Assembly (NCBI RefSeq): GCF_012720115.1
Contig: NZ_VNWN01000002.1
Span: 372,001 to 436,000, forward strand
Direction: 5' to 3'
DNA from: Sneathiella chinensis
Lineage (GTDB): Bacteria > Pseudomonadota > Alphaproteobacteria > Sneathiellales > Sneathiellaceae
Length of the DNA: 64,000 nt
Part shown: positions 15,610 through 46,548 of the stretch, one piece after another
How the letters are laid out: each line of letters opens with the position of its first letter
Numbering within the stretch: the first letter of the stretch is position 1
Made by a program: the position numbers and the translations under genes
The notes under the pieces: model-generated
Told to the model about the DNA's origin: nothing
The model's input: only the letters and a program-made list of their open reading frames with translations
Database searches by the model: none

Positions 15610-15649
15610 GGGTATTTGGCAGCCTTCAACTCAATTGTGGGGGAGGGGT

Positions 15650-17301: not shown

Positions 17302-17340
17302 ACGGCACAGATGGCGCACACTAACAGAGAGGAGAGACCA

Positions 17341-18480: not shown

Positions 18481-18487
18481 TTCCTCT

Positions 18488-18514
18488 CCCCCTCGCTGCA
18501 TGGGCAGCGGGGGG
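18488..18514 (+). terminator. Stem-loop between the PotD-like and PotA-like genes
   Basis: CCCCC-T-CGCTGC (18488-18499) pairs with GCAGCGGGGGG (18504-18514) with one bulged T and a four-base loop. It starts eight bases after the binding-protein stop. No T tract follows, so it may protect upstream message from 3' decay rather than stop transcription. Confidence 0.65.
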
Positions 18515-18543
18515 AACCGGACAGAGGCGGAAAGGGATTATCT

Positions 18544-19623: not shown

Positions 19624-19626
19624 TCA

Positions 19627-20970: not shown

Positions 20971-20980
20971 CGAGGCAACC

Positions 20981-21907: not shown

Positions 21908-22383
21908 TGTCCGGGATCACAATCAGGCTGGCCGAGGCTGAGGATGTCCCGGCCATTGATACGGCCCTTCGCAAGCTGTCCGACCATCTGGGAGATACCC
22001 ATGTCCTCCGTCAGGAAGAACTGGGCGCCCTGTTGTTTCAGGAGCCCATCGGAATTCGGGTGCTGCTGGCCGAGACGGCAGGAAAGCTGGTCGGTGTGGT
22101 GATGTTCTCGTCTTATGTTTCAACAACGGCAGGCGGGCTTGGGGTGTATGTTTCTGACCTTTGGGTGGACGCATCCGTTCGCGGGCAGGGGATAGGCCCC
22201 CGGTTATTGGTGGCCATTCTGGACCTTGGCCCCTTTCCCATAAAGACGATGTTCCTGAACGTCTATCAGGACAATATAGCGGCTCGCAAGACGTACCTGC
22301 GTCTTGGGTTCAAGGCGAACAGCCTAGCCGACGACCTGTCGCTTGACGAAAGCGACTTTCACAAAATCCGAGGAAAAGTATGA
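21907..22383 (+). CDS. GNAT family N-acetyltransferase
   Basis: The 158-residue protein is a single GNAT domain, with the acetyl-CoA-binding loop VRGQGIGPRLL near residue 90-100 and the C-terminal YQDNIAARKTYLRLGF strand-helix. Its ATG shares one base with the BKACE stop (TGATG), so translation is coupled. The acceptor is unknown. Beside an acetylpolyamine amidohydrolase-like protein it might acetylate or detoxify an amine intermediate, but a role on an antibiotic or a protein cannot be excluded. Confidence 0.9.
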   Translation: MSGITIRLAEAEDVPAIDTALRKLSDHLGDTHVLRQEELGALLFQEPIGIRVLLAETAGKLVGVVMFSSYVSTTAGGLGVYVSDLWVDASVRGQGIGPRLLVAILDLGPFPIKTMFLNVYQDNIAARKTYLRLGFKANSLADDLSLDESDFHKIRGKV

Positions 22384-23402
22384 AAGCGGTATTTGACGAA
22401 CGACAATGGAAACATGATCCCCAGAATTTTATGGCCAATGGTCAGCCCTTGCGCAACCCGGAACAGCCGGAACGCATTCGCCATCTGAAGGATGGGGCCA
22501 GTCGGGCAGGGGCCGTTTTTCAGGCGCCCCGGGATCATGGGCGCGGCCCCATTGCCGCCGTGCATTCCCCGGAATATTTGACCTTTTTGGAAAATATTCA
22601 TGCGCGCTGGAAACGGATTGAGGGCGCCTCGGACGAGGTGATCCCGAATATTCACCCGGATAGCCGGGGGGCCAATTATCCAAAATCGGCGGTTGGACAG
22701 GCCGGATATCATCAGGCGGATACGGCCTGCCCGATTGCCGAGGGTACGTGGGAGGCGGCCTACTGGTCCGCCCAGACGGCGCTGGAAGGGGCGGACTTGT
22801 TGCTGGGGGGCGAACGGGCGGCCTATTCCCTGTGCCGTCCGCCGGGACATCACGCCTTTGCCGATCTGGCGGGCGGGTTCTGTTTTTTGAACAATTCCGC
22901 GATTGCCGCCGATTACCTGCGTCAGCAGGGGTTGAAGCCCGCCATTCTGGATGTGGATGTTCATCACGGAAACGGGACGCAGGGGATCTTTTACAAACGC
23001 AACGATGTCCTGACCATTTCCCTGCATGCGGACCCGGATCGTTTTTACCCGTTTTTCTGGGGAAGTGCGCAGGAACGCGGCGAAGGATTGGGGGAGGGGT
23101 ATAATCTCAACCTGCCCTTGCCGCGGGGAACCGGCGATGACGACTATCTTGCCGTGTTGAAGACGGCGCTTGCCAGAGTGCGGAATTTCGGGGCGGATGT
23201 GGTGGTGATCGCCCTTGGACTGGATTCCCACGAGAATGACCCCTTGCAGGGCCTGAGCATTACCACCCCCGGCTTTGCCCGGTTGGGGGCTGCCATTTCA
23301 ACCCTTGGGGTGCCCACCCTGCTGGTTCAGGAAGGTGGCTATCTGTCCGACGATCTTGGCAACAATATCGAGAATTTCCTGACAGGGTTTGAAGGCGGAT
23401 AA
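22380..23402 (+). CDS. Histone deacetylase superfamily amidohydrolase, acetylpolyamine amidohydrolase-like
   Basis: The 340-residue protein matches the length and layout of bacterial acetylpolyamine amidohydrolases. Catalytic and zinc motifs are present: LCRPPGHHA (about 142-150), AILDVDVHHGNG (about 187-198, with the Asp and His ligands) and LGLDSHENDP (about 278-287, with the third Asp ligand), then QEGGY. It overlaps the GNAT stop as ATGA. The enzyme would remove an acetyl (or other short acyl) group from an amine in the cytoplasm. Next to a polyamine-type importer the likely substrate is an N-acetylated polyamine or amino acid. Confidence 0.9.
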   Translation: MKAVFDERQWKHDPQNFMANGQPLRNPEQPERIRHLKDGASRAGAVFQAPRDHGRGPIAAVHSPEYLTFLENIHARWKRIEGASDEVIPNIHPDSRGANYPKSAVGQAGYHQADTACPIAEGTWEAAYWSAQTALEGADLLLGGERAAYSLCRPPGHHAFADLAGGFCFLNNSAIAADYLRQQGLKPAILDVDVHHGNGTQGIFYKRNDVLTISLHADPDRFYPFFWGSAQERGEGLGEGYNLNLPLPRGTGDDDYLAVLKTALARVRNFGADVVVIALGLDSHENDPLQGLSITTPGFARLGAAISTLGVPTLLVQEGGYLSDDLGNNIENFLTGFEGG

Positions 23403-23422: not shown

Positions 23423-24328
23423 CTAGCCGTCTTCAGAATCCGTGAATTCGCTATGGTGATAGCCCTGAAAATAGAGGAGCGCGGTCAGGTCTGCGTGGTT
23501 GATGTGACGCGGTGTTTGCTCAACAACGATGGGCTGGCCGTGATAGGCAACCCCAAGACCCGCCGTTTGCAGCATGGGGATATCGTTGGCGCCATCGCCC
23601 ACCGCGGCGGCATCCAGGGGGGTGAGGCCCCGCTGACGACACAGCCGTGTCAGCAGGTCCGCCTTTGACGCGGGGCCAAGGATTTCCGGTCCGAGGGTTC
23701 CAAGGATTTTATCCTCCTTGATGGGCAGCGGATTGGCGTGATGTTCATGAAACCCCAGCGCCTTTGCCACCACCTCGGTGGTAAAGGTGAACCCGCCCGA
23801 GATCAGCGCCGTGTAGGCACCGTACTTCCTCATGGTCTGGATCAGGGTTTTCGCACCCGGTAGATAGGAAATCCGGCCAACCAGATCGTCAAGGGCGGCT
23901 GCCGGTTTGCCTGCCAGCAGGCTCACCCGCGCGCGAAGGGATTGTTCAAAATTCAGGGTGCCTTGCATGCTCTGTTCTGTAAGGGCCCGCACCGCCGCCC
24001 CGACCCCCAGCGCGTCGGCCATCACATCAAGGCTTTCCATGTCGATCATGGTGCTGTCCATATCCGAGACCAGAAGCCGTTTTCGCCGGTTTTCATTGGG
24101 CTGGACGGTGCAGTCATAGTCCCCCTTGAGCGGGGCAAGAATGCTTTCCGCCGCGTCCATGCCTTCCGCGTCAAAAAAGCAGTCGAAAGCAACCCCCTCG
24201 TTCAGCCACCTGAACGTCATGTTGCGGGCGCCTTCTGCGGCCAGTTGGGAGGCAAGCTGATCCTGCAGAGAGGAGGTAAGATCGGATTTGTCGGGATGGG
24301 TGACAACGGTGGCAACGTGGTTTTTCAT
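23423..24328 (-). CDS. serB: Phosphoserine phosphatase
   Basis: The 301-residue HAD-superfamily protein has the nucleophile motif DMDSTMID (DxDxT) near residue 88, a SGGFTFTTEVVA motif II region, and GDGANDIPML (motif IV) near 250; an ACT-like N-terminal region precedes the catalytic domain, as in proteobacterial SerB. I prefer ATG 24328, which gives the family N-terminus, over ATG 24373. It performs the last step of serine synthesis, releasing phosphate. It lies downstream of a Na/Pi cotransporter-like gene and sdaA, an odd pairing of serine synthesis and breakdown on one strand. It converges with the deacetylase gene, 20 bases apart. Confidence 0.93.
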   Translation of the reverse strand: MKNHVATVVTHPDKSDLTSSLQDQLASQLAAEGARNMTFRWLNEGVAFDCFFDAEGMDAAESILAPLKGDYDCTVQPNENRRKRLLVSDMDSTMIDMESLDVMADALGVGAAVRALTEQSMQGTLNFEQSLRARVSLLAGKPAAALDDLVGRISYLPGAKTLIQTMRKYGAYTALISGGFTFTTEVVAKALGFHEHHANPLPIKEDKILGTLGPEILGPASKADLLTRLCRQRGLTPLDAAAVGDGANDIPMLQTAGLGVAYHGQPIVVEQTPRHINHADLTALLYFQGYHHSEFTDSEDG

Positions 24329-24374
24329 CAGGGGTCCAGTCTTTTTCGGGCAGGAACGGCCCTGTTCCGCCATG

Positions 24375-26018
24375 CTAGCGGGACAGAGCCTGATCCTGAT
24401 TCAGGATCGGATAGGCAGTGGCGGCAATATGGGAATTGATGCGCCGGAAATCGCGCAGGATATCAAGATGGATGCGGCTTGTTTCAAGGCTTTCCGTCAC
24501 GCCCTTGCGAAGCCGGTCGATATGGTTTTCCGTGGCATTGAACAGCAGGTCGCGGAAGGCTTTTTTCTCGGCCAGAAGCTGCAGGGCCACATCCTCGTCC
24601 CGGGACATGAACAGGTCGATGGAAAGCTGGAAATTATTGACCATCATGCGATGAAGCTGCAGCAGTTCGTCCCGCCCTTCCTGTGAGAAAGACATCTTGG
24701 ACTTGTGCAGGTTACGGGCAAGTTCCGCCAGATTGCTGTCAATGATATCCCCGATATGCTCCAGATTCATGGTCAGTGTAAAAACCTCCACGGACCGGTG
24801 CATGTCATCCTCGCTCATATGGTCGCGCTTGATATTGGCGATATAAAGCGTGGCTTCCCGGTGCAGGAACTCGACAATATCGTCGGCTTTCTGTATGCGG
24901 TCGATTTCCGTGCAATCATCAAAGGCCCGAAGGCTCTGGTCCAGCATGGAATAGACAACATTTGCCATCCTGAGGGTCTCGCGGGCCACATTGGACAGGG
25001 CCTTTCCGGGATTGTTGCTATCCTGCGGTGACAGATACAGGCACCGCATTTCGTCATTCTCCGCATCGGTATCAGACCCGGCTTTCAGATATGTGACGAT
25101 TTTTGCGACCAGCGGCAAAACCGGCAGGAACATCACGGCCAGTGCTGTATTGAACAGGATGTGAAAGACCGCGACCAGTTGTCCGTGCTGTATGCCAGTA
25201 TCCAGCAGCAGCCGGGTAATCGGGGCCAGCAGGGCGCTGAAGACAAGCACGCCAATCAGCCTGAAGACAAGATTACCAAGGGTCAGCCTTTGCGCGGCGA
25301 CGGGTTCGTTCAGTGTCATGATGACGGCGGGAATGGCGGCCCCGAGGTTGGCCCCCAGTATGAAGACAATCCCAAGCTCCAGCGGGATGACGCTGCTGGA
25401 TACAAGGGTGACCACCAGCAGAACGATGGCGAGACTGGAATGGGCCAGCCATGTGATGACCATGGCCACCGCGATGGCCAGCAATGTATCATTTTCAAAG
25501 ACACCCATCATGCCGCCCACCGCCTCGCTTGAGCGGAAAATCGCCGTATTCATGGCGATCAGCTTCAGGGCCAGCAGGACAAATCCGAGCCCGATCAGAA
25601 CCCGCCCCGTATTGCGCACGGTCTTGGAGGAGGCGCTGAGAAAAACAATCAGGCCGATGGCAAGGAAGATGGGGCTGAGGAATTTCACGTCATAGCTGAG
25701 AAGCTGGGCGGCGATGCTGGTGCCGATATCGGCCCCAAGGACAAGGGCCAGTCCGGGGACCAGAAGCAAGGCCCCGCGCGCTGCAAACCCGGAGGCCATG
25801 ACAATCACAGCGGTGGAGGATTGCAGGCAAGCCGCCATTCCGGCCCCGGCCAGCAGGGCACTGAACCGGTTGCCGGCCATCCGCGCCATGATGCGCCTGA
25901 GATCGGCACCGAACAGGCGTTCAATGCCGGTGCGCACCATGCGGACCCCCCATAACAGGATTGCCACCGCACCGAACAGTTCAATTATGATCAATGACCC
26001 CTGACCCATGTCATTCAC
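24375..26018 (-). CDS. Na/Pi cotransporter family protein with PhoU-like C-terminal domain
   Basis: The 547-residue inner-membrane protein has two inverted repeats carrying the family motif, CLQSSTAVIVM near residue 65 and the variant AHSSLAIVLL near 190, plus about eight membrane segments up to residue 310. A helical C-terminal part (about 340-540) resembles PhoU. Members move phosphate with sodium. It starts 12 bases after sdaA and precedes serB, so it is probably in the same transcript. Direction of phosphate transport and any regulatory role of the PhoU part are unknown. Confidence 0.9.
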   Translation of the reverse strand: MNDMGQGSLIIIELFGAVAILLWGVRMVRTGIERLFGADLRRIMARMAGNRFSALLAGAGMAACLQSSTAVIVMASGFAARGALLLVPGLALVLGADIGTSIAAQLLSYDVKFLSPIFLAIGLIVFLSASSKTVRNTGRVLIGLGFVLLALKLIAMNTAIFRSSEAVGGMMGVFENDTLLAIAVAMVITWLAHSSLAIVLLVVTLVSSSVIPLELGIVFILGANLGAAIPAVIMTLNEPVAAQRLTLGNLVFRLIGVLVFSALLAPITRLLLDTGIQHGQLVAVFHILFNTALAVMFLPVLPLVAKIVTYLKAGSDTDAENDEMRCLYLSPQDSNNPGKALSNVARETLRMANVVYSMLDQSLRAFDDCTEIDRIQKADDIVEFLHREATLYIANIKRDHMSEDDMHRSVEVFTLTMNLEHIGDIIDSNLAELARNLHKSKMSFSQEGRDELLQLHRMMVNNFQLSIDLFMSRDEDVALQLLAEKKAFRDLLFNATENHIDRLRKGVTESLETSRIHLDILRDFRRINSHIAATAYPILNQDQALSR

Positions 26019-26030
26019 TTTCCGGGAAAA

Positions 26031-27416
26031 TCAACATTCAACGAAATTGACGGCAAGGCCCCCAAGCGAGGTTTCCTTGTATTTTGTCTGCATGTCCGCC
26101 CCCGTTTGACGCATGGTTTCAATGACCGCATCCAGCGATATCTTGTGGGTGCCATCCCCTTTCAGGGCCAGCCGTGAGGCCTGCACCGCCTTGACCGCGC
26201 CGACAGCGTTTCGCTCGATACAGGGGATTTGCACAAGCCCGCCCACGGGATCGCAGGTCAGGCCCAGATTATGCTCCATGCCGATTTCAGCGGCGTTTTC
26301 AATCTGGGCGTTGGTGCCCCCGAGCACGGCGGTCAGTCCCGCTGCCGCCATGGAACAGGCCACCCCGATTTCGCCCTGACAGCCAACCTCGGCCCCGGAA
26401 ATGGCGGCATTTTTCTTGTACAGGCTGCCGATGGCGGCGGCCGTCAGAAGAAAGGTTGCAACGTCTTTCCGGTCCTCTCCGCCGCAATGGCGTATGTGAT
26501 AGGCAAGGACGGCCGGTATGATCCCGGCGGCGCCGTTGGTTGGGGCCGTGACCACCCGGCCCCCGCAGGCATTTTCCTCGTTCACGGCAAGGGCATACAG
26601 GTTGATCCAGTCCAGCCCGGAAAGCGCATCCTCCCCCTTTGTTTCCTGCTGGCGGACAAGGTTTGCCCGCAGGTTCGCGGCGCGCCGGGGAACGTTCAGT
26701 CCCCCCGGCAGGGTTCCGCTTTCGTTGCATCCGCGCTCGATGCACTGCTCCATGGCCTGCCAGATGTCATCCAGTCCTTGTAAAACCTGTTCCTCCGGTC
26801 TTTGCGCACATTCATTTTTCAGAACCAGCTCCGCAATACTGAGGGCGTTTTCTTCCGCCAATTGCAGCAGGTGGCGGGCATTCCTGAAGGGATAGGGGGG
26901 CGGTGCCGATGCCGTGATCCGGTGTTGCAGGGCCTGCCCGTCCCCCTTAATGACGAACCCGCCGCCGATGGAATAATAGGTCCCGCTTTTCAGCAGGGCG
27001 CCATCCTTGTCAAAGGCGGCGAAGGTCATTCCGTTGGTATGGCCCGGCAAAAGCTGGTCGCGAAGTTCCAGATAGTGTTCCGCAGGATCAAGGGAAATGA
27101 TGTGTTTTCCGGCCAGTTTCAGACAGTGCGTGCGGCGGATGTTCTCCAGCATGGCTGGAACCTCAGCCGGGTCAACCAGATGGGGCTGCTCGCCGGACAG
27201 GCCCAGTAAAATGGCATGATCCGTGGCATGTCCCCGACCGGTAAGGGCGAGGGAGCCGTATGTCTTGATTAAAAGGCGGCAGACATCCGTCAAAACACCG
27301 GATTGATCCAGACCTTGTACAAAATGGTTGGCCGCCACCATGGGCCCGACCGTATGGGAACTGGACGGGCCAATGCCAATCTTGAACAGGTCAAAAACAC
27401 TGATGTTTGAGGGCAT
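26031..27416 (-). CDS. sdaA: L-serine ammonia-lyase (iron-sulfur, single-chain)
   Basis: The 461-residue protein has the N-terminal beta domain starting [19 protein letters not shown] and a C-terminal alpha domain with the cluster cysteines in [12 protein letters not shown] and [19 protein letters not shown], matching oxygen-sensitive [4Fe-4S] serine deaminases. It converts L-serine to pyruvate and ammonia. It begins 14 bases after the aapP stop, so serine brought in by the Aap transporter could go straight to pyruvate. Confidence 0.95.
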
Positions 27417-27430
27417 GGTGGCTTTCTGGG

Positions 27431-28228
27431 TCAGTTATGCAGGATCTGGCTCAGGAAGGCCTGTGTCCGGTCCACTTGCGGGTTGTCGAAAAATTCCGTT
27501 GGGGTGTTCTGTTCCACGATTTCGCCGCCATCCATGAAAATCACCCGGTCGGCGACCGATTTCGCAAATCCCATTTCATGGGTCACGCACAACATGGTCA
27601 TGCCTTCTTCAGCAAGTTCCGCCATCACATCCAGAACCTCCTTGATCATTTCCGGATCAAGGGCGGATGTGGGTTCATCAAACAGCATGATCTTTGGCGC
27701 CATGCAAAGAGAGCGGGCAATGGCCACCCGCTGTTGCTGGCCGCCCGACAATTGTCCCGGATACTTGTGGGCCTGTTCGGCGATATTGACCCGGTTCAGG
27801 TAATGCATGGCTGTCTCGACCGCCTCGGCCCGTGGCATTTTCCGAACCCAGATGGGGGCGAAGATCAGGTTTTCCAGAATGGTCATGTGGGGGAACAGGT
27901 TGAAATGCTGAAAACACATGCCGACCTCGCGGCGGATATGGCCGATATTCTTCGTGTTGTCGTTCAGTTCGACCCCGTCCACCAGAATGGTGCCGCCCTG
28001 ATGTTCTTCCAGCCGGTTCACACAGCGGATAAGCGTTGATTTCCCGGACCCGGACGGGCCGCAAATGACAATGCGTTCCCCCTTGCGAACGGCCAGATCC
28101 ACATTCTTCAGGACATGAAAGTCCCCATACCACTTGTTGACCTTGTCCAGCAGGATAATGGGCTGTTCAGCCTGTGACCCGGTCCGGCTGTCTGCTGATT
28201 GCGGGTTGGAGTGTGAAATAGTCATCAT
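27431..28228 (-). CDS. aapP: General L-amino acid ABC transporter ATPase (AapP)
   Basis: The 265-residue ATPase has Walker [10 protein letters not shown], signature [15 protein letters not shown] and Walker [13 protein letters not shown], and is of the polar amino acid (GlnQ/AapP) type. The frame is open to 28312, overlapping aapM; ATG 28228, 25 bases after the aapM stop, fits better though its ribosome binding site is modest. It energises the AapQ/AapM permeases. Confidence 0.92.
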
Positions 28229-28253
28229 GAAGTCTTGTCTTTCAGGTGAACGA

Positions 28254-29342
28254 TCAGCGATAGGCGGCGTAGCCACGTTTTTCGAGTGAGTTGCCATACC
28301 GGCTGAGGCCAAAGCATAAAATCCAGTAGATCAGGGCACAGAACACAAAGGCCTCGGCATCGAAGCCCAGCCATTCCGGGTCTTGTGACGCAGCCTTTGA
28401 GATACCGAGGAAATCCAGCAGCCCGACCACAATGACCAGCGAGGTATCTTTCAACAGTGCAATGCAGCGGCCAATCAGCGGCGGCAGAACCTTGGTCAGG
28501 GCCTGCGGCAGAATGATAAACAGCATGGTCACCCAGGGATGCAGCCCGAGGGAGGCGGCGGCCTCGCTCTGTCCGCTTTCAACGCCCTGCAATCCGCCGC
28601 GCACGACCTCGGCGATATAGGCGGAAGAAAACAGGATGATGCCGATCTGGACACGGTACAGGATGCCGATCTCCATCCCGCTGGGAAGGAACAGCGGCAG
28701 CATGATTGAGGCCATGAACAGGATCGTGACCAGGGGGACACCGCGCACGGTCTCGATCAGGGCGATACACAGCCCCTTGATCAGCTTGATGTTTGACCGG
28801 CGGCCCAAGGCCAGCAGGATACCAAGGGGAACAGATACCAAAATCCCGACCACGGACAGAACCAGCGTCAACAGCAACCCGCCCCATTTGGAGGTATCCA
28901 CACTTTCCAGCCCGAAGCCGCCCCCGACCAGCCAATAGATGGGCAGCGGCAGCAGCAGCCAGAACACTACGGCGACCTTGCCGGGCATAAGTTGACGGGC
29001 CGTTGCAATAAACAGGGCCAGCAACAGAAGACCGGCGGCGATGGGGCGCCATGCCAGTTCCTGCGGGTAGGAGCCGATCATGAACAGCCGGAACTGGGCC
29101 TGCACAAAGGACCAGCACGCCCCGCCCGCCGCCCGGCATTCATCGGCATTGCCAACGAATGTGGCGTTGAGGACAAACCAGTCCAGAAGCGGGGGAATGA
29201 TCGCAAGAATGATACCGACCCCGAGAAAGGTCAGGATGGTATTTTTAACCGAACTGAAAAAGTGATCCCGCAGCCATTTGATGACCCCGCGCTGGGTCGG
29301 CGGGGCCGGTTGGTCTGGTGAGGGTTGAAAGATGATCGTCAT
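28254..29342 (-). CDS. aapM: General L-amino acid ABC transporter permease (AapM)
   Basis: The 362-residue permease has an extended N-terminal part with a long periplasmic loop, as in AapM/BztC, and the C-terminal permease domain with the EAA-type loop [25 protein letters not shown] near 280-305. Only two bases separate it from aapQ. It forms the heteromeric channel with AapQ. Confidence 0.93.
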
Positions 29343-29344
29343 GA

Positions 29345-30526
29345 TTAACGCTCCACCAGTTGGAATTTCTTGTTGGCCACATTCATCAGCACGGAAATGA
29401 CCAGATTGATGGAAAGATAGACCAGCATCCAGATGCCGATCACCTCAATGGCCTGCCCGTTCTGGCCGATCATGGTGCCGCCAATGGACACCATGTCCGG
29501 ATAGCCGATGGCGATGGCAAGGGAACTGTCCTTGACCAGACTGGCGTAATCGTTTGTTGTGGCGGGAATGATGGTGCGAAGGGCCTGCGGCAGGATTACA
29601 CCGCGCATGATGCGGGAGGGCGGCACCCCAAGGGCGGCGGCCGCTTCATTCTGTCCCTTGCTGACGGCCATGATGCCGCTTCGGACATTTTCGGCGATGA
29701 AGGCCCCCCGATAGAGCGCCAACCCGATGACCAGAGCGAGAAATTCCGGCCGGAAAACCGCTCCGCCGGAAAAATTGAACCCTTTCAAGGCCGGATAATC
29801 CCAACTGACCGGGCCGCCCGCCATCCAAAAGACCGACAGGGGAACCAGTGTCAGGATCGCCGTGCCCAGCCAGAAGAGCGGCAGGGAGCGGCCTGTCAGG
29901 TTCTGGCGCTTCTTGGCCCATCTCACCATCAGGATGGTCAGCCCGATGGCGACCAGAAAGGCCATGGCGACCCAGATGAAGCCGTCTTCGGGGATGGCGC
30001 GGGGGAAATACAGGCCGCGCTGGCTCAGGAAGGTGCCGGGGAAAATCTCGACCGCCTGCTTGACCGATGGCAATCCGGCGAGGGCGACACCATAGACAAA
30101 TAGCAGGATCAGTAGAACGGGAACATTCCGCAGGATTTCCACATAGGTTTTGGCGATTTTGGCAATCAGAAGATTGTCGGAAACCTGTGCCACGCCCACA
30201 ATGACACCCACCACCGTGGCCAGAATGATGCACAGGATTGCCGTATAAAGGGTGTTGATGATCCCGACCAGCAGGGCATATCCGTAACTGTCGCTGGATT
30301 GATAGTCGATCAGGGAATCGCCAATGGGAAAGCCGGCCTCTTGCGAGAGGAAGGCAAAGCCCGTTTCAATATGACGGGCCGCCAGATTTTCCTGTGTCGA
30401 AAGAAACAGATAATAGGCGCCCCCGATTGCCGCCGCGACCATGAGCAATTGCACAAGGTTGGACAGCAGGTTCCGAGGGGTGAAGAAAGTGCTCAGCATT
30501 CCTGCCAAATCTGATTGTGTCGACAT
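29345..30526 (-). CDS. aapQ: General L-amino acid ABC transporter permease (AapQ)
   Basis: The 393-residue permease has the AapQ/BztB layout, with a first membrane segment near 25-45, a long insert, and the EAA-type loop QNEAAAALGVPPSRIMRGVILPQAL near 310-335. ATG 30526 follows AAGGTGA; a GTG nine bases upstream is in frame. It lies downstream of aapJ across a terminator-like hairpin, so its expression is probably lower than that of the binding protein. Confidence 0.93.
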   Translation of the reverse strand: MSTQSDLAGMLSTFFTPRNLLSNLVQLLMVAAAIGGAYYLFLSTQENLAARHIETGFAFLSQEAGFPIGDSLIDYQSSDSYGYALLVGIINTLYTAILCIILATVVGVIVGVAQVSDNLLIAKIAKTYVEILRNVPVLLILLFVYGVALAGLPSVKQAVEIFPGTFLSQRGLYFPRAIPEDGFIWVAMAFLVAIGLTILMVRWAKKRQNLTGRSLPLFWLGTAILTLVPLSVFWMAGGPVSWDYPALKGFNFSGGAVFRPEFLALVIGLALYRGAFIAENVRSGIMAVSKGQNEAAAALGVPPSRIMRGVILPQALRTIIPATTNDYASLVKDSSLAIAIGYPDMVSIGGTMIGQNGQAIEVIGIWMLVYLSINLVISVLMNVANKKFQLVER

Positions 30527-30579
30527 AAACGTCACCTTGCCTTGCAGGCCGGTCGGGTAACACCGGGTAAGGATCAGGG

Positions 30580-30630: not shown

Positions 30631-31644
30631 TTAGCGAAGCGGTGCCACGTAAAGCAGGCCACCCTTGGTCCACAGGGCGTTCTTGCCGCGCGGCATGTTC
30701 AGGGGGCTTTCGCTGCCAAGGTTGCGGTCGTAAATTTCGCCGTAGTTACCGACCGCCTTGATGGCATTGTACAGCCAGTCATTTTCAAGACCGAGATAGC
30801 TGCCGTAATCCCCGGTGACACCCAGCATACGCTGAACCGTCGGGTTCTTGGAGGAGGCTTTCTGCTCGCTGGCGTTGCCCTGTGTCACGCCGGTTTCCTC
30901 GGCGGTGATCAGGCCGTTGATGGTCCAGGTTACAAGGTCTTTCCACGCGTTGTCGCCGTGCTTGACCAGCGGGGCCAGCGGCTCTTTCGAGAAGATTTCA
31001 GGCAGAATGACATGTTCTGCCGGGTCCGGCATGGTGATGCGGAAGGCGGCAAGCTGGCTGGCATCTGTTGTCAGCGCGTCGCAGCGACCGGAACGATAGG
31101 CGTTTACGGCCTCTTTCTTGCCTTCAAAGACAACCGGTTCGAATTCCAGGCTGTTGGCCCGGGCAAAGTCTTCAAGGTTCAGCTCAGTGGTGGTGCCGGC
31201 TGTTACGCAGACGGTGGCCCCGTTCAGGTCCATGGCGCTGGCCGCCCCGTTTTGCTTGCGGGTCATGAAACCCTGACCGTCAAAGAACACGACCGAGGTA
31301 AAGTCAACGCCTTCCTTGGTGTCGCGCTTCATGGTCCAGGTTGTTGTCCGGGAGGTCAGGTCCACCTGACCGGTCACAACCGCCAGTACTTTCTGTTTTG
31401 AGGCAAGGGGCACAAACTTGATTTTTGTCGGATCGTTGAAGATTGCCGCAGACAAGGCGCGGCACATATCCACGTCAAAGCCCTTCCAGTCCCCTTCCGC
31501 ATTCGGGTTGGAGAAGCCGGGTACGCCTTCACTGACACCGCAATTGATGAAACCGCGTGCCTTCACATCATCCAGTGTTGCCGCCATTGCCTGACCGGCG
31601 AACAGGGCAAAACCAGCGGCCAGCAGACCAGTTATCTTTTTCAT
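30631..31644 (-). CDS. aapJ: General L-amino acid ABC transporter substrate-binding protein (AapJ)
   Basis: The 337-residue periplasmic binding protein has a signal peptide (about 1-22, ending GQAMAA) and the AapJ/BztA family pattern: GFINCGVSEGVPGFSNPN, RTTTWTMKRDT, TICV-type VCVTAGTTTELNLEDF and a C-terminal NYGEIYDRNLG. ATG 31644 follows GGAGG. It is the first gene of aapJQMP-sdaA-NaPi-serB. A diverged paralogue sits at 31966-32994, facing away. Confidence 0.94.
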   Translation of the reverse strand: MKKITGLLAAGFALFAGQAMAATLDDVKARGFINCGVSEGVPGFSNPNAEGDWKGFDVDMCRALSAAIFNDPTKIKFVPLASKQKVLAVVTGQVDLTSRTTTWTMKRDTKEGVDFTSVVFFDGQGFMTRKQNGAASAMDLNGATVCVTAGTTTELNLEDFARANSLEFEPVVFEGKKEAVNAYRSGRCDALTTDASQLAAFRITMPDPAEHVILPEIFSKEPLAPLVKHGDNAWKDLVTWTINGLITAEETGVTQGNASEQKASSKNPTVQRMLGVTGDYGSYLGLENDWLYNAIKAVGNYGEIYDRNLGSESPLNMPRGKNALWTKGGLLYVAPLR

Positions 31645-31965
31645 TGAAACCTCCATTAACGTTTCGTTTTACGCCCCCGGAATGGATGGCGGCCTTTCAC
31701 CACATGCTCCTTGTTAATGGGGGATGTGGCCCAGATGCGCGTGTGTTGACCCTGTGTTGTTTTTGTTGGCAACGATGCGCATGATTGCATGTTCCACGGT
31801 ATTGGCCGGGATATCTATTACCCGGAAGTCGCCCTTCTCTATCAAAGGTCATATGCCGAGCTTCCTGTATTGGACCAAAGTCGTGTGCGGTATGGAAAAT
31901 TTCCCAAGGCTGTTGCGATTGCGCTAATGTCATTGCGGGTTATTCTGGAAAAACGGACAACTGCG
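31645..31965. other. Divergent intergenic region between aapJ and the sensor operon
   Basis: About 320 bases with no convincing gene. It must hold the promoters of the leftward aap operon and the rightward binding protein/histidine kinase operon. An in-frame extension upstream of 31966 exists (to 31789, with ATG at 31927), but it would bury the signal peptide. I could not pick out strong -35/-10 pairs by eye. Confidence 0.5.
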
Positions 31966-32994
31966 ATGCGCTTTCTTCGTATGATGATCATGGGATATAT
32001 GCTGGTCTGGGCCGCGTCCGGCCCGGCTCTGGCAGAGGGGGAGGGCACCCTTCAGAAAGTGCGGGAGCGCGGCTATCTCCTGTGCGGTGTCGGCGATCAT
32101 GATTTCGGATTTGCAGAGCGGGATACCAACGGAAAATGGCACGGGTTTGATGTTGATTTATGCCGCGCCATCGCAACAGCTACCCTTGGCGAGCCGGACA
32201 AGGTCCGCTTTATCCCCGTCGACAGTCAAAGCCGGTTGCCCGCGCTTCTGGCCGGGGAAATTGATGTACTGTTTCGCACGACCACCTGGACAATGCAGCG
32301 GGACAGCACCATCGCGATCGATTTCACCCGTGTGATGCTGTTCGAGGTGCAGGGGGTTATCGCCCGCGGGGAACTGGGCATCACCAGCCTTAAGGAGGTC
32401 CGGCAGGGAACCATTTGTGTCAATGCCGGCACCACCAGTCACCTGAACCTGCGGGAATATCTGGAGGTGCATAACCCCGGTCTGGATATTCTGGTACTGG
32501 AAACGCAGGAGGGGCGGTGGCAGGCCTTCTTTAACGGGCGATGCGATCTCATGTCGTCAGACCTGATGGACCTACAGGCGGGCAAGGTGATGCTGGCCCC
32601 GAGCTCCGAGGATATGACGCTGTTGACGGATATTATCTCGAAGGAGCCGCTGGCCCCGGCTGTGCGCAATGAGGATGCCGCGTGGTTTGACATCATCAAG
32701 TGGGTTCTGAACGGGGTTATCGCCCTTGAGGAGAACCGTATCTCCTCCACCAATATTGATGAGCGCCTGACAGGGTTGAGCGGCGAGGCAAAGCGGATGT
32801 TGGGGCCGGATGTGACCCTTGGGAAAACACTGGGGCTGGATGCGGGATGGCTGGAGCGTATTGCCCGCGATGTGGGAAATTATGGCGAGATTTTCGAGCG
32901 CAACCTTGGTCAGGCCTCCCCGTTCAAGATAGAGCGCAAGCATAACCGATTATGGACAGAGGGCGGGTTGATTTACGCCATGCCCCTTCGCTAA
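31966..32994 (+). CDS. AapJ-like periplasmic binding protein linked to a sensor kinase
   Basis: The 342-residue protein has a signal peptide (about 1-24, cleaved near GPALAEG) and is a diverged paralogue of AapJ, keeping RTTTWTMQRDS, TICVNAGTTSHLNLREY and the C-terminal NYGEIFERNLG. ATG 31966 is chosen because it gives a proper signal peptide; ATG 31927 is an alternative. It has no transporter genes of its own: a histidine kinase with a large periplasmic domain begins four bases after its stop. Inference: it binds an amino acid and presents it to the kinase rather than to a permease. It lacks the stem-loop that follows aapJ. Confidence 0.88.
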   Translation: MRFLRMMIMGYMLVWAASGPALAEGEGTLQKVRERGYLLCGVGDHDFGFAERDTNGKWHGFDVDLCRAIATATLGEPDKVRFIPVDSQSRLPALLAGEIDVLFRTTTWTMQRDSTIAIDFTRVMLFEVQGVIARGELGITSLKEVRQGTICVNAGTTSHLNLREYLEVHNPGLDILVLETQEGRWQAFFNGRCDLMSSDLMDLQAGKVMLAPSSEDMTLLTDIISKEPLAPAVRNEDAAWFDIIKWVLNGVIALEENRISSTNIDERLTGLSGEAKRMLGPDVTLGKTLGLDAGWLERIARDVGNYGEIFERNLGQASPFKIERKHNRLWTEGGLIYAMPLR

Positions 32995-32998
32995 GCCC

Positions 32999-35701
32999 AT
33001 GGATCGCTCCATGAAATCATTCCGGCCGGGCGTTTTTTTCAGGGTTTTTGCCGGTCTTGGCATCATCGGTATCCTGATCATCAGCGCCGGTGTTGTGTCG
33101 GTCAAATCTTTCAATGAGTTCAGCAGCGGCTTGCGCTCTTTTTCCACCCGCGACCTGCCGGTGGTGATTGACGGCTCGAAACTGAACCAGCTCAGCGCCA
33201 ATCTTGCCTCCTTTGCGCCGGCCCTGATTGCGGCCGACAGCCCCGGCACCCGCAAATCCATCTTTCTTCGGATCAAGGATCAGGTTGCGTGGCTGGATGA
33301 AATTCTTCTCAATCTGGAGGAAACCGAGAATTCAAGCCGGGACCTGAGTGAGTTCAGAACCCTTAAAACCAATCTGGTCGACAATCTTCACCATATTTCC
33401 GATCTGGTAAAGGAACGGAACGTGATTTTGGAGCAGTCCGATACCCTGTTGAAGACGGTCCCGGATCTCAACTCGAAATCCTTCGTCATCAGCAACCGGT
33501 TCCTGCAGAACAATAACAGTCCCGATCTAATCTATGTCCTTCAGGAATGGCACCGTTTGAATACGGATGCGCTTCTGCTTGTGCCGCTGGCGGCGACGGT
33601 GGATCAGTTCACCGAACTGAACGATATCTCGGTAAGGTTTTCCGGCATTCTGGCGCAGATCGACGCCATGACGGCCCGTTTGCCGGACGCGGTCCAGCTT
33701 GAACTGGGCACGTTCAGAAAGGAACTGATCGCCCTCGGGCAGGAGGAAAACGGCATCATTCGTCTTCATGAAAAGGCGCTGGAGCTGAACGGGAAGGTGC
33801 AGGGGACCCTCAGCCAGAACAAGCTGATCGCCAACCGGTTCATTGCCTCTTCCTCCAGCCTGACCCGGAACATTCGCGATGAAATCCTGCATAAAAGCGA
33901 TCTTCTGGATCAATCCACGCAGGAACGCAGCCTCTACTTCATCATCATCACCTTCCTCTGTATTTCGGGGGCAGTGCTGGTTTTCGTCTATATCAACAAA
34001 TCCGTGATCCAGCGGCTGAGCGGCCTGCAGAAAAACATGCTGAATTATGCCGCCGGGAAAAGCGAAACCATTGCCACCGTGGGAAATGACGAAATCACCG
34101 ACATGGCCAAGGCCTTCAAATATTTCGTCCAGACCATTCAGGAGCGTGAGGCCGCCCTGCAGGTGGCCAACAGGCAGGTGGCCGAGGTGCAGGCCCGGCT
34201 TGTGGATGCTATTCAGAACATATCAGAAGGGTTCGTCCTGTTTGACAGCAAGCACCAACTTGTTCTTTGCAATGACAATTATCGTCAGTTGTATGGATAT
34301 CAGCCGGACGATGTTCAGCCGGGAACACCTTATGAAACCCTGCTCCGGGCGGATCTGTCGCGGGGGATTGCCGCCGATAATTCATCCTATCGCCGGGCCC
34401 GGCTGGCCCCGCTGGAAACCGCGCGGGCTGCGGTTGAGATACAGCTTGCCGATGGCCGCTGGCTGTCCATTCAGGATCGGGCTACGGCGGCGGGGGGGAT
34501 CGTCGGCATTCATGCGGATATCACCGGCAAGAAGGAGGCCGAGGCAGCTCTTCGCGTGGCAAAGGACAGGGCCGAGCGGGCCGATCAGGCAAAATCCCGC
34601 TTTCTGGCCGCCGCCAGTCATGACCTGCGCCAACCGTTACATGCGGTGGGGTTGTTCGCGGCGGCGCTTTTGAACCGGACGCAGGATCCGCATATGCGCG
34701 ATATAACCGGGAATATTGAACGCTCGCTCTTGCATATGAACGATCTTTTTGAATCCATCCTTGATTTCTCCCAGTTGGAAATCGGGGACCTGCAGCCTGA
34801 TCTGTCCTCTATCTCCCTGAAATCCATGGTGGATAATGTGGCGCGTGACTTTACCCTTCAGGCAGAGGAAAAATCTCTGGGTTTTCGGCTTGTCATGCCG
34901 GATGTCCATGTGTTCAGTGACGCCCTGATGCTGGATCGCATCCTGCGGAATTTGGTGTCGAACGCCATTCGCTATACGGATCAGGGGCGCATTCTGATCG
35001 GCGGTCGCCGCCAGGGGCAGCAGATCCGCATCGAGGTCTGGGATACCGGATGCGGGATTGCCCCGGAACAGCAGGAAAAGATTTTCTCCGACTTTTACCG
35101 GGGCGGAGAGACGCGGGCCGAGGATAGGGGTCTCGGGCTTGGGCTCTCCATTGCGGCGCAGATGGCCGGGCTCCTGAAAACGCGGATCGAGATGCACTCC
35201 CGCCCCGGGCAGGGCTCCTGTTTCAGTGTGACCGTGCCGCTCAGCGATGCCGGTGCCAGCCTGCCGGGTCACACCCCGGAACTGGAGCCGCCGAAACTGG
35301 AGACCGGCACCGTCCTGTCGGGAGAGCGGGTGTTGGTGATTGATGATGATCCGCAAATCCTGAAGGCGACGGAAAAGCTCCTGCAGCGCTGGGGTTGTCA
35401 GGTGAGGACGGCGCAAAATCTGGCCGCAGCGGAAACCTGCCTTGCAGAGGGCGCAGGGCCGTTTCTGGCTATTCTCGCGGACTACCAGATCAGCCGCCAC
35501 GAAACCGGTCTTGATTTTCTGGAGCGTCTACCGGAATACGGGGACAGGGGGGTGATTATCAGCGGGAATACGGACCCGGACATTGCCGCCCAGGTCAAGG
35601 CGGCGGGCTATCCCTTTTTCCAGAAACCGCTCAAGCCGGCCAAGCTGGCGGCCCTGCTTCGGCATTTGAAAAGAACGCAAGCGGCGACCGGAGCGGGCTA
35701 G
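32999..35701 (+). CDS. Hybrid sensor histidine kinase with PAS and receiver domains
   Basis: The 900-residue protein has a membrane segment at about 13-36, a largely helical periplasmic domain (about 37-310), a second membrane segment (about 312-334), a HAMP linker (335-385), a PAS domain (about 397-513), a HisKA domain with phospho-acceptor His541 in SHDLRQPLHAVG, a HATPase domain (about 640-755, N box NLVSNAIRYTDQG), and a C-terminal receiver (about 776-895) with Asp828. It starts four bases after the binding-protein gene and its stop overlaps the convergent response-regulator stop by four bases. The probable path is binding protein, kinase, own receiver, then NarL-type regulator; the last link is inferred from position. 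Confidence 0.92.
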   Translation: MDRSMKSFRPGVFFRVFAGLGIIGILIISAGVVSVKSFNEFSSGLRSFSTRDLPVVIDGSKLNQLSANLASFAPALIAADSPGTRKSIFLRIKDQVAWLDEILLNLEETENSSRDLSEFRTLKTNLVDNLHHISDLVKERNVILEQSDTLLKTVPDLNSKSFVISNRFLQNNNSPDLIYVLQEWHRLNTDALLLVPLAATVDQFTELNDISVRFSGILAQIDAMTARLPDAVQLELGTFRKELIALGQEENGIIRLHEKALELNGKVQGTLSQNKLIANRFIASSSSLTRNIRDEILHKSDLLDQSTQERSLYFIIITFLCISGAVLVFVYINKSVIQRLSGLQKNMLNYAAGKSETIATVGNDEITDMAKAFKYFVQTIQEREAALQVANRQVAEVQARLVDAIQNISEGFVLFDSKHQLVLCNDNYRQLYGYQPDDVQPGTPYETLLRADLSRGIAADNSSYRRARLAPLETARAAVEIQLADGRWLSIQDRATAAGGIVGIHADITGKKEAEAALRVAKDRAERADQAKSRFLAAASHDLRQPLHAVGLFAAALLNRTQDPHMRDITGNIERSLLHMNDLFESILDFSQLEIGDLQPDLSSISLKSMVDNVARDFTLQAEEKSLGFRLVMPDVHVFSDALMLDRILRNLVSNAIRYTDQGRILIGGRRQGQQIRIEVWDTGCGIAPEQQEKIFSDFYRGGETRAEDRGLGLGLSIAAQMAGLLKTRIEMHSRPGQGSCFSVTVPLSDAGASLPGHTPELEPPKLETGTVLSGERVLVIDDDPQILKATEKLLQRWGCQVRTAQNLAAAETCLAEGAGPFLAILADYQISRHETGLDFLERLPEYGDRGVIISGNTDPDIAAQVKAAGYPFFQKPLKPAKLAALLRHLKRTQAATGAG

Positions 35702-36330
35702 GTATCCCATTTCAGGGCGATGGCCTTGGCCCGGCTGGTGACCGACAGGGATTTCAGGATGGCCGTAACATGGGCCTTCACGGTGCCCTCCGTGCAGCCG
35801 GCCTCGCGAGCGATTTCCTTGTTTGACAGCCCGGTTTGCATCAGGGCAAAGATTTCCTGCTGGCGGGCGGTCAGGTTGAACGGATGCGGGGCGGGTTTGT
35901 CCGGCTCCTGCGGGGTTTCTTCCGCGGGATCGGCAGACAGCAGCAGGGACGGGATATAAATCTCCCCTGCCAGAACAAGGCGAATGGCATTCAGCATGAC
36001 TTCCTTGCGGGATGCCTTGGGAATATAGCCATCGGCGCCGCTATCAAGGGCCTGCTGCACCAGATTACGGTGGTTGTAGGCGGAAAGAATGGCAACTGCC
36101 ACATCCGGCGCAGCCTGTTTCAACGCCTGCAGGGTTTCAATTCCTTTCATGCCGGGCATTTTCAGGTCCAGCAGAATGAGGTCCAGATCAATCCCCTGAT
36201 CCAGCAACCGGTAAATGCCGTCCAGATCCTCAGCCTCAAAAATATCAAGCGCATCCCCAAGATCGGCCAACGCCGACTTGACCCCCTCGCGCACCATCTG
36301 GTGATCGTCTGCTATCAATATCCTTATCAT
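35698..36330 (-). CDS. NarL/LuxR family response regulator
   Basis: The 210-residue protein has an N-terminal receiver (about 1-120; acidic Asp9-Asp10, phospho-acceptor Asp55 in LLDLKMPGM) and a C-terminal LuxR helix-turn-helix (about 148-207; LTARQQEIFALMQTGLSNKEIA and GTVKAHVTAILKSL). Its 3' end overlaps that of the hybrid kinase by four bases in convergent orientation, which makes it the likely output partner. A linker rich in Pro and Glu separates the domains. Targets may include the aap operon or the adjacent region; not shown by sequence. Confidence 0.9.
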   Translation of the reverse strand: MIRILIADDHQMVREGVKSALADLGDALDIFEAEDLDGIYRLLDQGIDLDLILLDLKMPGMKGIETLQALKQAAPDVAVAILSAYNHRNLVQQALDSGADGYIPKASRKEVMLNAIRLVLAGEIYIPSLLLSADPAEETPQEPDKPAPHPFNLTARQQEIFALMQTGLSNKEIAREAGCTEGTVKAHVTAILKSLSVTSRAKAIALKWDT

Positions 36331-43654: not shown

Positions 43655-44553
43655 CCGATACAACAGATTTCAGAACCATTCCGGAATTGCCGGCACCCTC
43701 GCCCTCAGAAGTATTGCGTCAGCGAATTTTCCAGCATCGGGGCTTGATGATTGGAGGGGGAATTCTGGCGGTTATTGTGCTTGGTGCACTGTTTGCGCCG
43801 GTGTTGGCCCCTTATGACCCCTATTTGCAAGATCTTGCAAATAGGACTGTCCCCCCTGTCTGGATGGACGGCGGGAGTTGGGCTCATGTGCTGGGAACAG
43901 ATCAATTGGGCAGGGATTATTTGACACGCCTGCTCTACGGTGCCCGCATTTCCCTTTTGATTGGTTTGGCTACTGCCGCCATTTCCGGGGTGATCGGCAT
44001 CTCGCTTGGCTTGATCGCCGGTTATTTCGGTGGCCGTGTGGATAATGTCATCATGTTCCTGATTACAACCCGATTGGCCATGCCGGTCATTCTGGTTGCC
44101 CTGGCAGTGGTCGCGCTCATTGGCAGTTCCCTAACCACAGTTATTCTGGTTCTCGGGTTTCTTCTGTGGGAACGGTTCGCTTTGGTGATCAGAGCCTCGA
44201 CCATGCGTTTGAGAACGCTTGAATATGTGGATGCGGCGAAGGCTCAAGGGGCGGGTTCCGTCTGGATCCTGATCAGGGAACTGATCCCCAATCTTGCAAA
44301 CAGCATAATCGTGGTCGCCACGCTAGAGATGGCACATGCCATCATTCTGGAGGCCGCTCTATCCTTTCTGGGGTTGGGAATTCAGCCGCCACTGCCCTCT
44401 TGGGGGTTGATGGTTTCTGAAGGGCGTGAACTGCTGTTGTTTGTTCCGTGGCTTATTACAATTCCCGGTGTCTTTCTTTTTCTACTGGTTCTCTCGATCA
44501 ATCTGGTTGGGGATGGACTGAGAGATGTGACAGCGCCCGATGGAAAGAACTGA
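43651..44553 (+). CDS. Peptide-type ABC transporter permease (DppC family)
   Basis: The 300-residue permease has the DppC N-terminal extension, six membrane segments, LGTDQLGRDYLTRLLYGARISL near 80-101 and a coupling loop EYVDAAKAQGAGSVWILIRELIPN near 190-213. ATG 43651 overlaps the dppB-like stop; the upstream part of the longer frame lies inside that gene. Confidence 0.94.
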   Translation: MTDTTDFRTIPELPAPSPSEVLRQRIFQHRGLMIGGGILAVIVLGALFAPVLAPYDPYLQDLANRTVPPVWMDGGSWAHVLGTDQLGRDYLTRLLYGARISLLIGLATAAISGVIGISLGLIAGYFGGRVDNVIMFLITTRLAMPVILVALAVVALIGSSLTTVILVLGFLLWERFALVIRASTMRLRTLEYVDAAKAQGAGSVWILIRELIPNLANSIIVVATLEMAHAIILEAALSFLGLGIQPPLPSWGLMVSEGRELLLFVPWLITIPGVFLFLLVLSINLVGDGLRDVTAPDGKN

Positions 44554-44563
44554 GAGGGTGGTT

Positions 44564-45565
44564 ATGACTTCACTTCTTTCGATACAAGGACTTCAGGTCG
44601 ATATCGCGACACCGGGAGGCACTTTGCAAGCAGTCAAAAATCTCAATCTGGATGTTCAGAGGGGAGAGACACATTGCATTGTGGGCGAGTCTGGTTGCGG
44701 CAAATCAATAACGGCTTTGGCAATGATTGGGTTGTTGCCGGAAAAAGCCAGAATAACAGCTGGCAGCATCCTTTTTGAGCAACAGAACCTGGCCTGCTTG
44801 AATGAAGCAGGGCTTTCGAACCTGCGCGGAAATCGCATGGCGATGATTTTTCAGGAGCCGATGACCTGCCTAAATCCAACGCTGACAATCGGAACTCAGT
44901 TGACCGAAGGCTTTCTGCGGCATGGAAAAGGCAACAGAAAGGCCGCCTATGAACGCGCCATAATGCTGCTGGAGAAAGTTGGGATCAGTGCTGCGGACAA
45001 AAGGTTCCATCAATACCCCTACAGTCTTTCTGGTGGGTTGCGCCAACGGGTCATGATTGCCATGGCGTTGATGTGCGAACCGGACCTGATCATCGCGGAT
45101 GAACCCACAACGGCACTGGATGTTACCGTTCAGGCGCAGATACTGGCAACTTTGTCCGAGCTTAAATCTGAAATGGGCTTGTCGTTGATTGTGATTACGC
45201 ATGATTTGGGGGTGGTTGCGCGGATCGCAGACAATGTCACGGTTATGTATGCGGGAGAGGCCGTCGAAACAGGGACGGTCAGCCAGGTCTTTGGAAATCC
45301 GGGGCATCCTTACACGGTCGGCCTTCAGAAAAGCGTTGTTGGCTCCGCAGACAGAGATAGTCAGCGACTATCCGTCATTCCGGGCCGGGTTCCCTCACTG
45401 GTGGGTGGATTAACCGGGTGCCGTTTTCGCAATCGCTGCCCGCATGCGATCCCCAAATGTGCCGAAGCGGATATAGATATGTCGGAGCTAGAGGCGGACC
45501 ATACATATCGCTGTTTGCGGAATGTGAGCGCCGGGCGGCCTGAAATGACGGGAGGGGTACTGTGA
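44564..45565 (+). CDS. Peptide-type ABC transporter ATPase (DppD family)
   Basis: The 333-residue ATPase has Walker [11 protein letters not shown], signature [15 protein letters not shown], Walker [13 protein letters not shown] and the C-terminal cysteine-containing region [14 protein letters not shown] typical of OppD/DppD. I chose ATG 44564, preceded by GAGAGG; ATG 44540, inside the end of the permease gene, is possible. Confidence 0.93.
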
Positions 45566-46548
45566 AACTCGCTTCAAAAGGAATGTCGGTTCTGGAGCTT
45601 CAGGATATTCAGAAATGCTATGACGTCCGTCTTGGCATGTTTGGCGGACGGGCGAAATTACAGGCGGTTCGCGATGTCTCCCTAAATCTCTGTAAAGGGG
45701 AAACGCTGGGTGTTGTGGGTGAGTCCGGTTGCGGAAAAAGTACGCTCGCCAAAATTCTGATGGGGCTCCTGAAACCAAGTCAGGGAAAGGTTTTAATTGA
45801 TGGGCAGCCGCTTGAAGGTTTCAGCCCCAAAGACCTGTCGAGAAAAGTTCAGCCTGTCTTTCAAAACCCGTATTCCTCTTTAAACCCGCGCAAGAAAATA
45901 TTCGACATCATATCCATGCCGCTGGAGTTACATGAGCTTGGCACCAAGGCGGATCGCCGGAAAACCGTGATGGATATGATCGAGAAGGTGGGGTTGCCCC
46001 CGTCTATCGCGGAGAGATTCCCAAGCCAGTTATCCGGCGGGCAGCGCCAGCGGATTGCAATTGCCAGAGCCTTGGTTGTCCGGCCTGAGGTGGTCATTCT
46101 CGATGAACCAACTTCTGCGCTGGATGTCTCTGTGCAAGCGCAGATCCTCAATCTCTTGAAGGATCTGCAACAGGAATACGGGCTGACATATCTGATGATT
46201 AGCCATGATCTGTCTGTCATTGAGTATCTCGCTGACAGGGTGGCGGTCATGTATCTCGGGGCGATCGTCGAGGTTGCCTCGGTTGATAAGGTTTTTAAGG
46301 CTCCCCAGCATCCTTACACACAGGCGCTCCTCGACTCGGTCTTGACGCCGGAGCCGGGTCTGGGATTACCACATGTCAATTTGACCGCAGGGTTTCCCAA
46401 TCCCTTAAATCCTCCCAGTGGCTGTGCCTTTCATCCCAGATGCGTTTCCGCTCTCCCGGAATGCGCCCAACATCGGCCGCAACTGACAAGCACCTCCCTG
46501 GGGGATGTTGCCTGCCTTTTGAAAACAGACTTTCAACAGAAAATATGA
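45562..46548 (+). CDS. Peptide-type ABC transporter ATPase (DppF family)
   Basis: The 328-residue ATPase has Walker [10 protein letters not shown], signature LSGGQRQRIAIARAL, Walker [13 protein letters not shown] and the C-terminal GCAFHPRCVSALPEC region of the OppF/DppF type. GTG 45562 overlaps the previous stop as GTGA and has GGGAGGGG upstream, so it is preferred to ATG 45583. The dipeptidase-like gene follows after 15 bases. Confidence 0.93.
   Translation: MKLASKGMSVLELQDIQKCYDVRLGMFGGRAKLQAVRDVSLNLCKGETLGVVGESGCGKSTLAKILMGLLKPSQGKVLIDGQPLEGFSPKDLSRKVQPVFQNPYSSLNPRKKIFDIISMPLELHELGTKADRRKTVMDMIEKVGLPPSIAERFPSQLSGGQRQRIAIARALVVRPEVVILDEPTSALDVSVQAQILNLLKDLQQEYGLTYLMISHDLSVIEYLADRVAVMYLGAIVEVASVDKVFKAPQHPYTQALLDSVLTPEPGLGLPHVNLTAGFPNPLNPPSGCAFHPRCVSALPECAQHRPQLTSTSLGDVACLLKTDFQQKI

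Follow-up and report, generated by a model that had tools for sequence, protein, structure and literature searches.

The window, a 64,000-nucleotide stretch of the Sneathiella chinensis genome, contains genes for a binding protein, a sensor kinase, and a response regulator next to an aap transport operon. The first, SBPsig (31966–32994, + strand), encodes a 342-aa AapJ-family binding protein of the sensory type with a signal peptide recognized by inspection; the open frame reaches back to an ATG at 31789, but the start that resembles a signal peptide lies at 31966. A gap of four bases (32995–32998) lies between its stop and the ATG of a hybrid histidine kinase gene (32999–35701, + strand; 900 aa), which has a second in-frame ATG at 33011. 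The kinase gene is convergent with a NarL/LuxR-type response regulator gene (35698–36330, − strand; 210 aa, Response_reg and GerE domains by Pfam), and the palindrome CTAG at 35698–35701 is common to both stop codons, giving a 4-base overlap. Divergent from SBPsig, with a start-to-start gap of 321 bp, is aapJ (30631–31644, − strand; in-frame ATG also at 31656), which belongs to a subtype specific to this gene set. Downstream of aapJ on the same strand follow, in order, aapQ (29345–30535), aapM (28254–29342), aapP (27431–28312), the L-serine ammonia-lyase gene sdaA (26031–27416; TIGR00720, 673 bits), a Na/Pi transporter gene with PhoU domains (24375–26018; Pfam Na_Pi_cotrans and PhoU), and serB (23423–24373), the genome's second phosphoserine phosphatase gene (TIGR00338, 185.4 bits, above the cut-off of 144.15). 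An earlier sequence-only reading of this DNA had described an AapJ-like gene four bases before a kinase gene, a 4-base overlap of stops, and a divergent aapJ, and this layout proved exact when we reread the coordinates.

The kinase consists of TM1, a TorS-like periplasmic helical domain, TM2, a weakly matched HAMP domain, PAS_7 (34211–34543), HisKA (34589–34780), HATPase (34919–35245), and a C-terminal receiver (35330–35659), all encoded on the + strand, with Pfam as the source of the domain matches. The same Pfam scan gave neither an Hpt match nor an SLC5/STAC input domain. The translations retain the residues needed for catalysis: His541 of the kinase (within SHDLRQP), glycine motifs in its ATPase domain, the receiver Asp, and Asp55 of the regulator. 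Over its C-terminal 365 residues, the kinase resembles the NahK/ErcS hybrid kinases, but it scores 350.4 bits against the NCBIfam C-terminal model NF041832, below the cut-off of 400, and its input is different.

By inspection, the periplasmic stretch between the two hydrophobic helices of the kinase is ~274 residues long. We modelled this sensor domain with AlphaFold2 (residues 31–312; 33089–33934, + strand; mean pLDDT 89.9) and compared it to the PDB with Foldseek, in which the five best matches were all TorS sensor domains (3o1i, 3i9y, 3o1h, 3o1j; TMq 0.68–0.74), four of the five being chains from TorT complexes. The Pfam TorS_sensor_domain matches the kinase at E 9e-4, below the family cut-off, and reaches E ≤ 0.01 in six of 12 aligned kinase members, the window's included. 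A profile of the sensor alignment searched against PDB chains places TorS 3o1h first, covering most of the domain (E 0.012), and the sensor sequence alone has a single match among PDB sequences (E 1.2). TorS takes its signal from the binding protein TorT (cited in PMC10384115). A TorS-type input fold therefore gives the adjacency of SBPsig and the kinase a structural rationale, and the modelled structure supports a kinase input domain of the TorS kind, the type read by a binding protein. Elsewhere, this genome encodes another kinase whose sensor stretch is TorS-like (G000:C12:1260327–1260923; L167), and none of the genome's four SBP_bac_3 matches is near it.

SBP_bac_3 is the sole Pfam family matched by SBPsig (2.2e-14). 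The protein keeps R112 and D199, which align with GlnBP R75 and D157, presumably the Arg and Asp that contact the alpha-carboxylate and alpha-amino groups of the ligand. With this domain and both residues, SBPsig fits the AapJ-family amino acid binding proteins, as far as its sequence can tell. It shares 40% identity over 330 columns with the adjacent aapJ product.

AapJ-family proteins adjoin kinases with TorS-like sensors in many genomes, and we used phylogenetic trees to relate these to transport AapJs. Duplicate loci (L111, L126, L169–L172, L175, L176) were dropped beforehand, and some labels were assigned by hand from gene maps: L070, L129, L134, and L135 as kinase-linked, and, in the smaller tree, L082 and L178 as permease-linked. 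In a 48-row tree, one branch with support 100/97 splits 26 kinase-linked rows from 22 others, i.e., a single change. In a 94-row tree that includes 57 transport proteins, the kinase label needs three changes (two of them forced by starred branches) versus 26 in shuffles, and the transport label needs five. The exceptions are L128, L130, and L131, which fall beside the transport branch, and L212, which falls inside it. A pure split into sensory and transport proteins thus held in 48 rows and was broken in 94. SBPsig groups with the sensory proteins of Kiloniella, an Oceanospirillaceae MAG, and genomes G1105 and G1070, not with the adjacent aapJ, which counters the idea that it is a local duplicate captured from the source operon. 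That idea, a duplicated transport protein taken over for signalling beside its parent, came from the sequence-only reading and has to be given up: aapJ is not the nearest relative of SBPsig, and the locus is far younger than the divide between sensory and transport branches. Altogether, the trees support an old sensory lineage, with kinase-linked AapJ-family proteins appearing almost separate from the transport AapJs.

These trees also bear on whether SBPsig might simply be a second transport binding protein for AapQM, with the kinase sensing its ligand directly or sensing something else. AapJ-family genes can indeed stand in series before one permease (L082), SBPsig retains the residues for the alpha-carboxylate and alpha-amino groups, and binding proteins encoded nearby are not always kinase partners: for Pseudomonas aeruginosa AgtS and AruS, PMC11113362 reports binding proteins encoded nearby that did not interact with the sensor domains of those kinases. 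This result is a caution against reading adjacency as partnership between SBPsig and its kinase. We nevertheless regard a second transport protein as improbable, given the near separation of kinase-linked from permease-linked proteins (three changes versus 26 in shuffles), and given that for 25 of the 31 kinase-linked rows no match to aapQ/M lies within reach (two of these are on ~3 kb contigs).

Several related loci are worth recording. At L064, L065, L069, L071, L074–L076, L129–L131, L134, L135, L158, L159, L162, and L168, the fetched stretch has an AapJ-family gene next to a kinase gene but lacks an aap permease; such genes make up a wide group of candidate sensor pairs in Proteobacteria. 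Two loci (L113, 8590–9228; L114, 4410–5048) have the same convergent kinase/regulator layout and a divergent AapJ-like gene; their maps show no aap operon, and their regulators are 37–38% identical to that of the window. In Kiloniella litopenaei (L061, 8350–8620), a frameshift affects the last part of the sensory gene, and the remainder reads on in another frame, as either sequencing error or decay could cause.

The full set, i.e., aapJQMP with the sensory protein, the kinase, and the ErdR-like regulator, was found in the window and in five other genomes: K. litopenaei (L111/G278), a Kiloniella MAG (L110/G448), an Oceanospirillaceae MAG (L112), Vibrio penaeicida (L115/G1105), and G1070, which has the same genus code as G1105. 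The arrangement differs among them. In the Kiloniella sets, the regulator is placed after aapP and serB; in the Oceanospirillaceae MAG, the transport and sensory genes run in the same direction with the regulator convergent; in G1105 and G1070, the regulator and serB lie 8–9 kb past the kinase. The window's aapJ is 79–80% identical to those of Kiloniella, and its regulator shares 48–58% identity with those of the other five sets. AapJ, SBPsig, AapQ, AapM, AapP, SerB, the regulator, and the kinase core all give the same six-member branching order (one AapP fork has support of only 53), which is also the split between alpha- and gammaproteobacteria. The six sets amount to about four lineages and are not six independent cases.

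The set is sparsely distributed. A match to the kinase sensor region at E < 1e-100 occurs in two of 61 genomes in the order of G278 and in two of 296 genomes sampled within the family of G618, where the query alignments contained G278 and, for the G618 family, also the Kiloniella MAG, L112, and V. penaeicida. In a class sample (n = 385), G278 has the sole close sensor match besides the window, and in a phylum sample (n = 398), the next-best match has E 6e-54 (G488), with no AapJ-family gene on the G488 map. Ten of the 16 matched loci (L110–L119) were mapped. Among 23 congeners (16 of them ≥90% complete), no aapJ exceeds 54% identity and no match to SBPsig exceeds 41%; the set-type aapJ is found in none of the 23. 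An ordinary aap operon is present elsewhere in the window genome (L081). Altogether, the paralogue, the kinase, the regulator, and this aapJQMP subtype recur together, and the recurrence of both the gene pair and the whole set in distant genomes means that the arrangement of the locus is more than chance.

Two other parts of the window match DNA beside these sets. Positions 15536–23402, with genes for an ABC transporter, a class-III aminotransferase, a beta-keto acid cleavage enzyme, and a histone-deacetylase-like hydrolase, are collinear at 65–85% identity with a stretch beside the Kiloniella MAG set (L126), so the island common to the window and this MAG exceeds the sensor/transporter set. 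Positions 44540–46548 hold two ABC ATPase genes of the peptide-transport kind that are 47–49% identical to a gene beside the V. penaeicida set (L115), possibly by chance, the family being a common one.

Turning to the output of the sensor, the best NCBIfam match of the regulator is ErdR (132.4 bits, below the cut-off of 390), so by sequence its nearest characterised family appears to be ErdR, also known as CrbR. The CrbR ACTU motif is an inverted repeat of a form similar to TACGACTTTAGT (PMC5715377). In Kiloniella, we spotted TACGACTTTAGT by eye ahead of aapJ; G1105 and G1070 have it in their SerB-RR gap. For a systematic search, we used a matrix of 20 of the 23 ACTU sites in Table 4 of that paper (PMC5715377), many of which its authors termed not significant; the matrix was not tuned on the sequences studied here. 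It identifies a candidate operator, CACGACTTTGGTCCAAT, between aapJ and SBPsig (31869–31885, − strand), which ranks first across the 64-kb window with a score of 17.6 and ranks second with a six-site matrix. The aapJ/SBPsig gap also ranks first in both Kiloniella loci (16.7 and 13.1). By comparison, in 35 control loci with ordinary aap genes, the best upstream site ranks first in only one, and the highest of the 12 scores listed is 11.0.

Not all sets give as clear a match. Sites in the SerB-RR gap score 11.4 and 11.6, barely over the best control score listed, and the match upstream of aapJ is weak in L112 and G1070. For the G1105 aapJ, the rank-3 matrix match differs from the element conserved between G1105 and G1070, and a core-motif scan of the L112 SerB-RR gap finds two one-mismatch sites. 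The core pattern YAYGACTTTRGTY occurs once in the 3.55-Mb window genome, in the aapJ/SBPsig gap, the pattern having been widened after that site was seen. Per genome, it has one to four matches with the set versus zero to four without it, and since there is no enrichment of the plain core pattern, only its place speaks. Our search for a sigma-70 promoter in 31560–32060 found none. Taken together, these motif matches support a putative operator of the regulator's nearest characterised family between aapJ and SBPsig. Downstream of the operator-like site in Kiloniella and G1105/G1070 (L110/L111 and L115/L178, upstream of aapJ), we also noticed by eye a second element, CCAATRCCTCT followed by CCAAT or CTAAT; the six-site matrix scores the CCAATRCCTCT element too in Kiloniella.

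The candidate operator lies 80 bp upstream of SBPsig and, on its other side, 224 bp upstream of aapJ, which raises the question of what the regulator controls. Being closer to SBPsig, the site would fit self-control alone, and we considered a self-contained sensor whose regulator acts on the sensory operon and unlinked targets only, with aapJQMP adjacent without being a target. The site is closer to the sensory gene in Kiloniella as well, and in G1105 and G1070 an exact core match lies in the SerB-RR gap, ~9 kb from the kinase gene and further still from aapJ. Against such a sensor, the aap subtype accompanies the sensory genes in six genomes and in several arrangements, and we think it unlikely.

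The binding pocket and the neighbouring genes offer some indication of the ligand. S87 and T105 are fixed in the sensory and transport binding proteins of the sets (12 of 12) and rare elsewhere (≤15%); they are the only two such columns among 314. They align with GlnBP F50 and G68, which we take to be ligand contacts. The chance of two random columns both falling within 14 pocket positions is 0.002, the positions having been named after the columns were seen. The sharing of these pocket residues suggests that SBPsig and the set's AapJ probably bind the same ligand. Judging by the company that the set keeps, serine or O-phosphoserine is the leading guess, ahead of amino acids at large. A serB gene is present in all six sets; in G1105 and G1070 it is ~18 kb from aapJ and adjoins the regulator.

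At its most specific, this guess becomes a set dedicated to uptake and sensing of O-phospho-L-serine, in which the AapJQMP subtype would import phosphoserine, the second SerB would release phosphate, the Na/Pi transporter would export phosphate, SdaA would deaminate the serine, and the sensory AapJ relative would report via the TorS-like kinase and the ErdR-like regulator. We offer this full scheme only tentatively and consider it rather doubtful. Asp46, which is fixed in the six sensory proteins at a pocket position, would be unsuited to phosphate and argues against a phosphate ligand. Among the open-licence PMC papers listed by our searches, no title or abstract concerned phosphoserine uptake or AapJ-linked kinases, which is a weak negative.

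A somewhat better prospect, short of probable, is that ligand recognition extends to L-amino acids broadly, as it does in ordinary AapJ, and that the second serB, sdaA, and the Na/Pi gene are neighbours with no functional tie. The backbone-binding residues are those of general amino acid binding proteins, sdaA is beside the set only in the window genome (one of six), and the Na/Pi gene is in three of six (the window, V. penaeicida G1105, and G1070). The SerBs of the sets were not resolved as one clade, making up one side of a branch in 22% of bootstrap trees, and L179 and L194 (the latter the same place as L230) carry S87 and T105 in the absence of the set and with no serB in the fetched stretch. 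The distribution of serB is harder to reconcile with unrelated neighbours: it is within 10 kb of aapJ in four of six sets versus none of 35 ordinary aap loci (flanks of about 6–10 kb, less at L096), and two SerBs score above the family cut-off in all five whole genomes with the set versus one in each of the four tested without it.

Among known systems, the arrangement is most readily compared to TorT/TorS/TorR, which responds to TMAO and in which a binding protein likewise accompanies a hybrid kinase whose periplasmic domain is helical and has the same fold. TorT is of another binding-protein class, TorR belongs to the OmpR type, and TorS carries a C-terminal Hpt domain. The window instead has an SBP_bac_3 binding protein, a GerE-type regulator, and no Hpt match. 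The acetate system CrbS/CrbR (= MxtR/ErdR) is alike in its regulator, which scores best against ErdR, and in the resemblance of the operator to the ACTU motif; however, CrbS takes its input through an SLC5 symporter and a STAC domain (PMC5715377), unlike the TorS-like domain and binding protein here. Mismatches in binding-protein class, regulator class, or kinase input place the set outside both the Tor and the Crb systems. A precedent for a second binding protein working as a sensor comes from Ruminiclostridium cellulolyticum, where, according to PMC10384115, tests showed that the binding protein CuaD, the kinase CuaS, and the regulator CuaR control an adjoining ABC transporter. The genes here similarly combine a second binding protein, a kinase, and a regulator beside an ABC transporter; the Cua system differs in that its ligand is cellobiose, its binding protein is acylated, and the sensor part of CuaS is without a predicted domain (PMC10384115). 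With the AapJQMP general L-amino acid permease, the set has in common the type of transport operon, and its sensory protein comes from the same family (nearest solved relative, 4z9n), but its aap genes form a subtype of their own, accompanied by a sensor and a second serB.

Computation thus yields the layout, the catalytic residues, the TorS-like fold, the sensory lineage, the recurrence, the operator match, the second serB, and the shared pocket residues. The reading that we prefer, and hold to be likely on this computational evidence, is a three-component sensor resembling TorT/TorS, with an AapJ-type antenna and an ErdR-like output that would set expression of the transporter, of itself, or of both. 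In this scheme, the exported AapJ-like protein would bind an extracellular L-amino acid in the periplasm, most likely L-serine or O-phospho-L-serine. Liganded SBPsig would then dock on the TorS-like helical domain and change the activity of the kinase, and phosphate would move from His541 to the convergent ErdR/CrbR-like regulator, either directly or through the C-terminal receiver. By binding the ACTU-like operator between aapJ and SBPsig, the regulator would activate the series of transporter genes, the sensor operon of its own system, or both. The sequence-only reading had proposed that an amino acid is sensed through the paralogue, kinase, and regulator to control the aap genes; that core idea gains support, by inference only, from the TorS-type input, the sensory grouping, the recurrence, and the operator-like site, while its account of origin by local capture does not.

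The AapJ look-alike is thus probably the antenna of a sensor kinase that controls the aap operon or itself. This suggests that TorS-type input domains also serve a second class of binding proteins and that a family of transport proteins contains an old sensory branch. It would also tie a type of regulator known from acetate control to amino acid uptake. If the ligand is phosphoserine, the set would make it possible to test directly how bacteria locate and exploit phosphate that is attached to amino acids.
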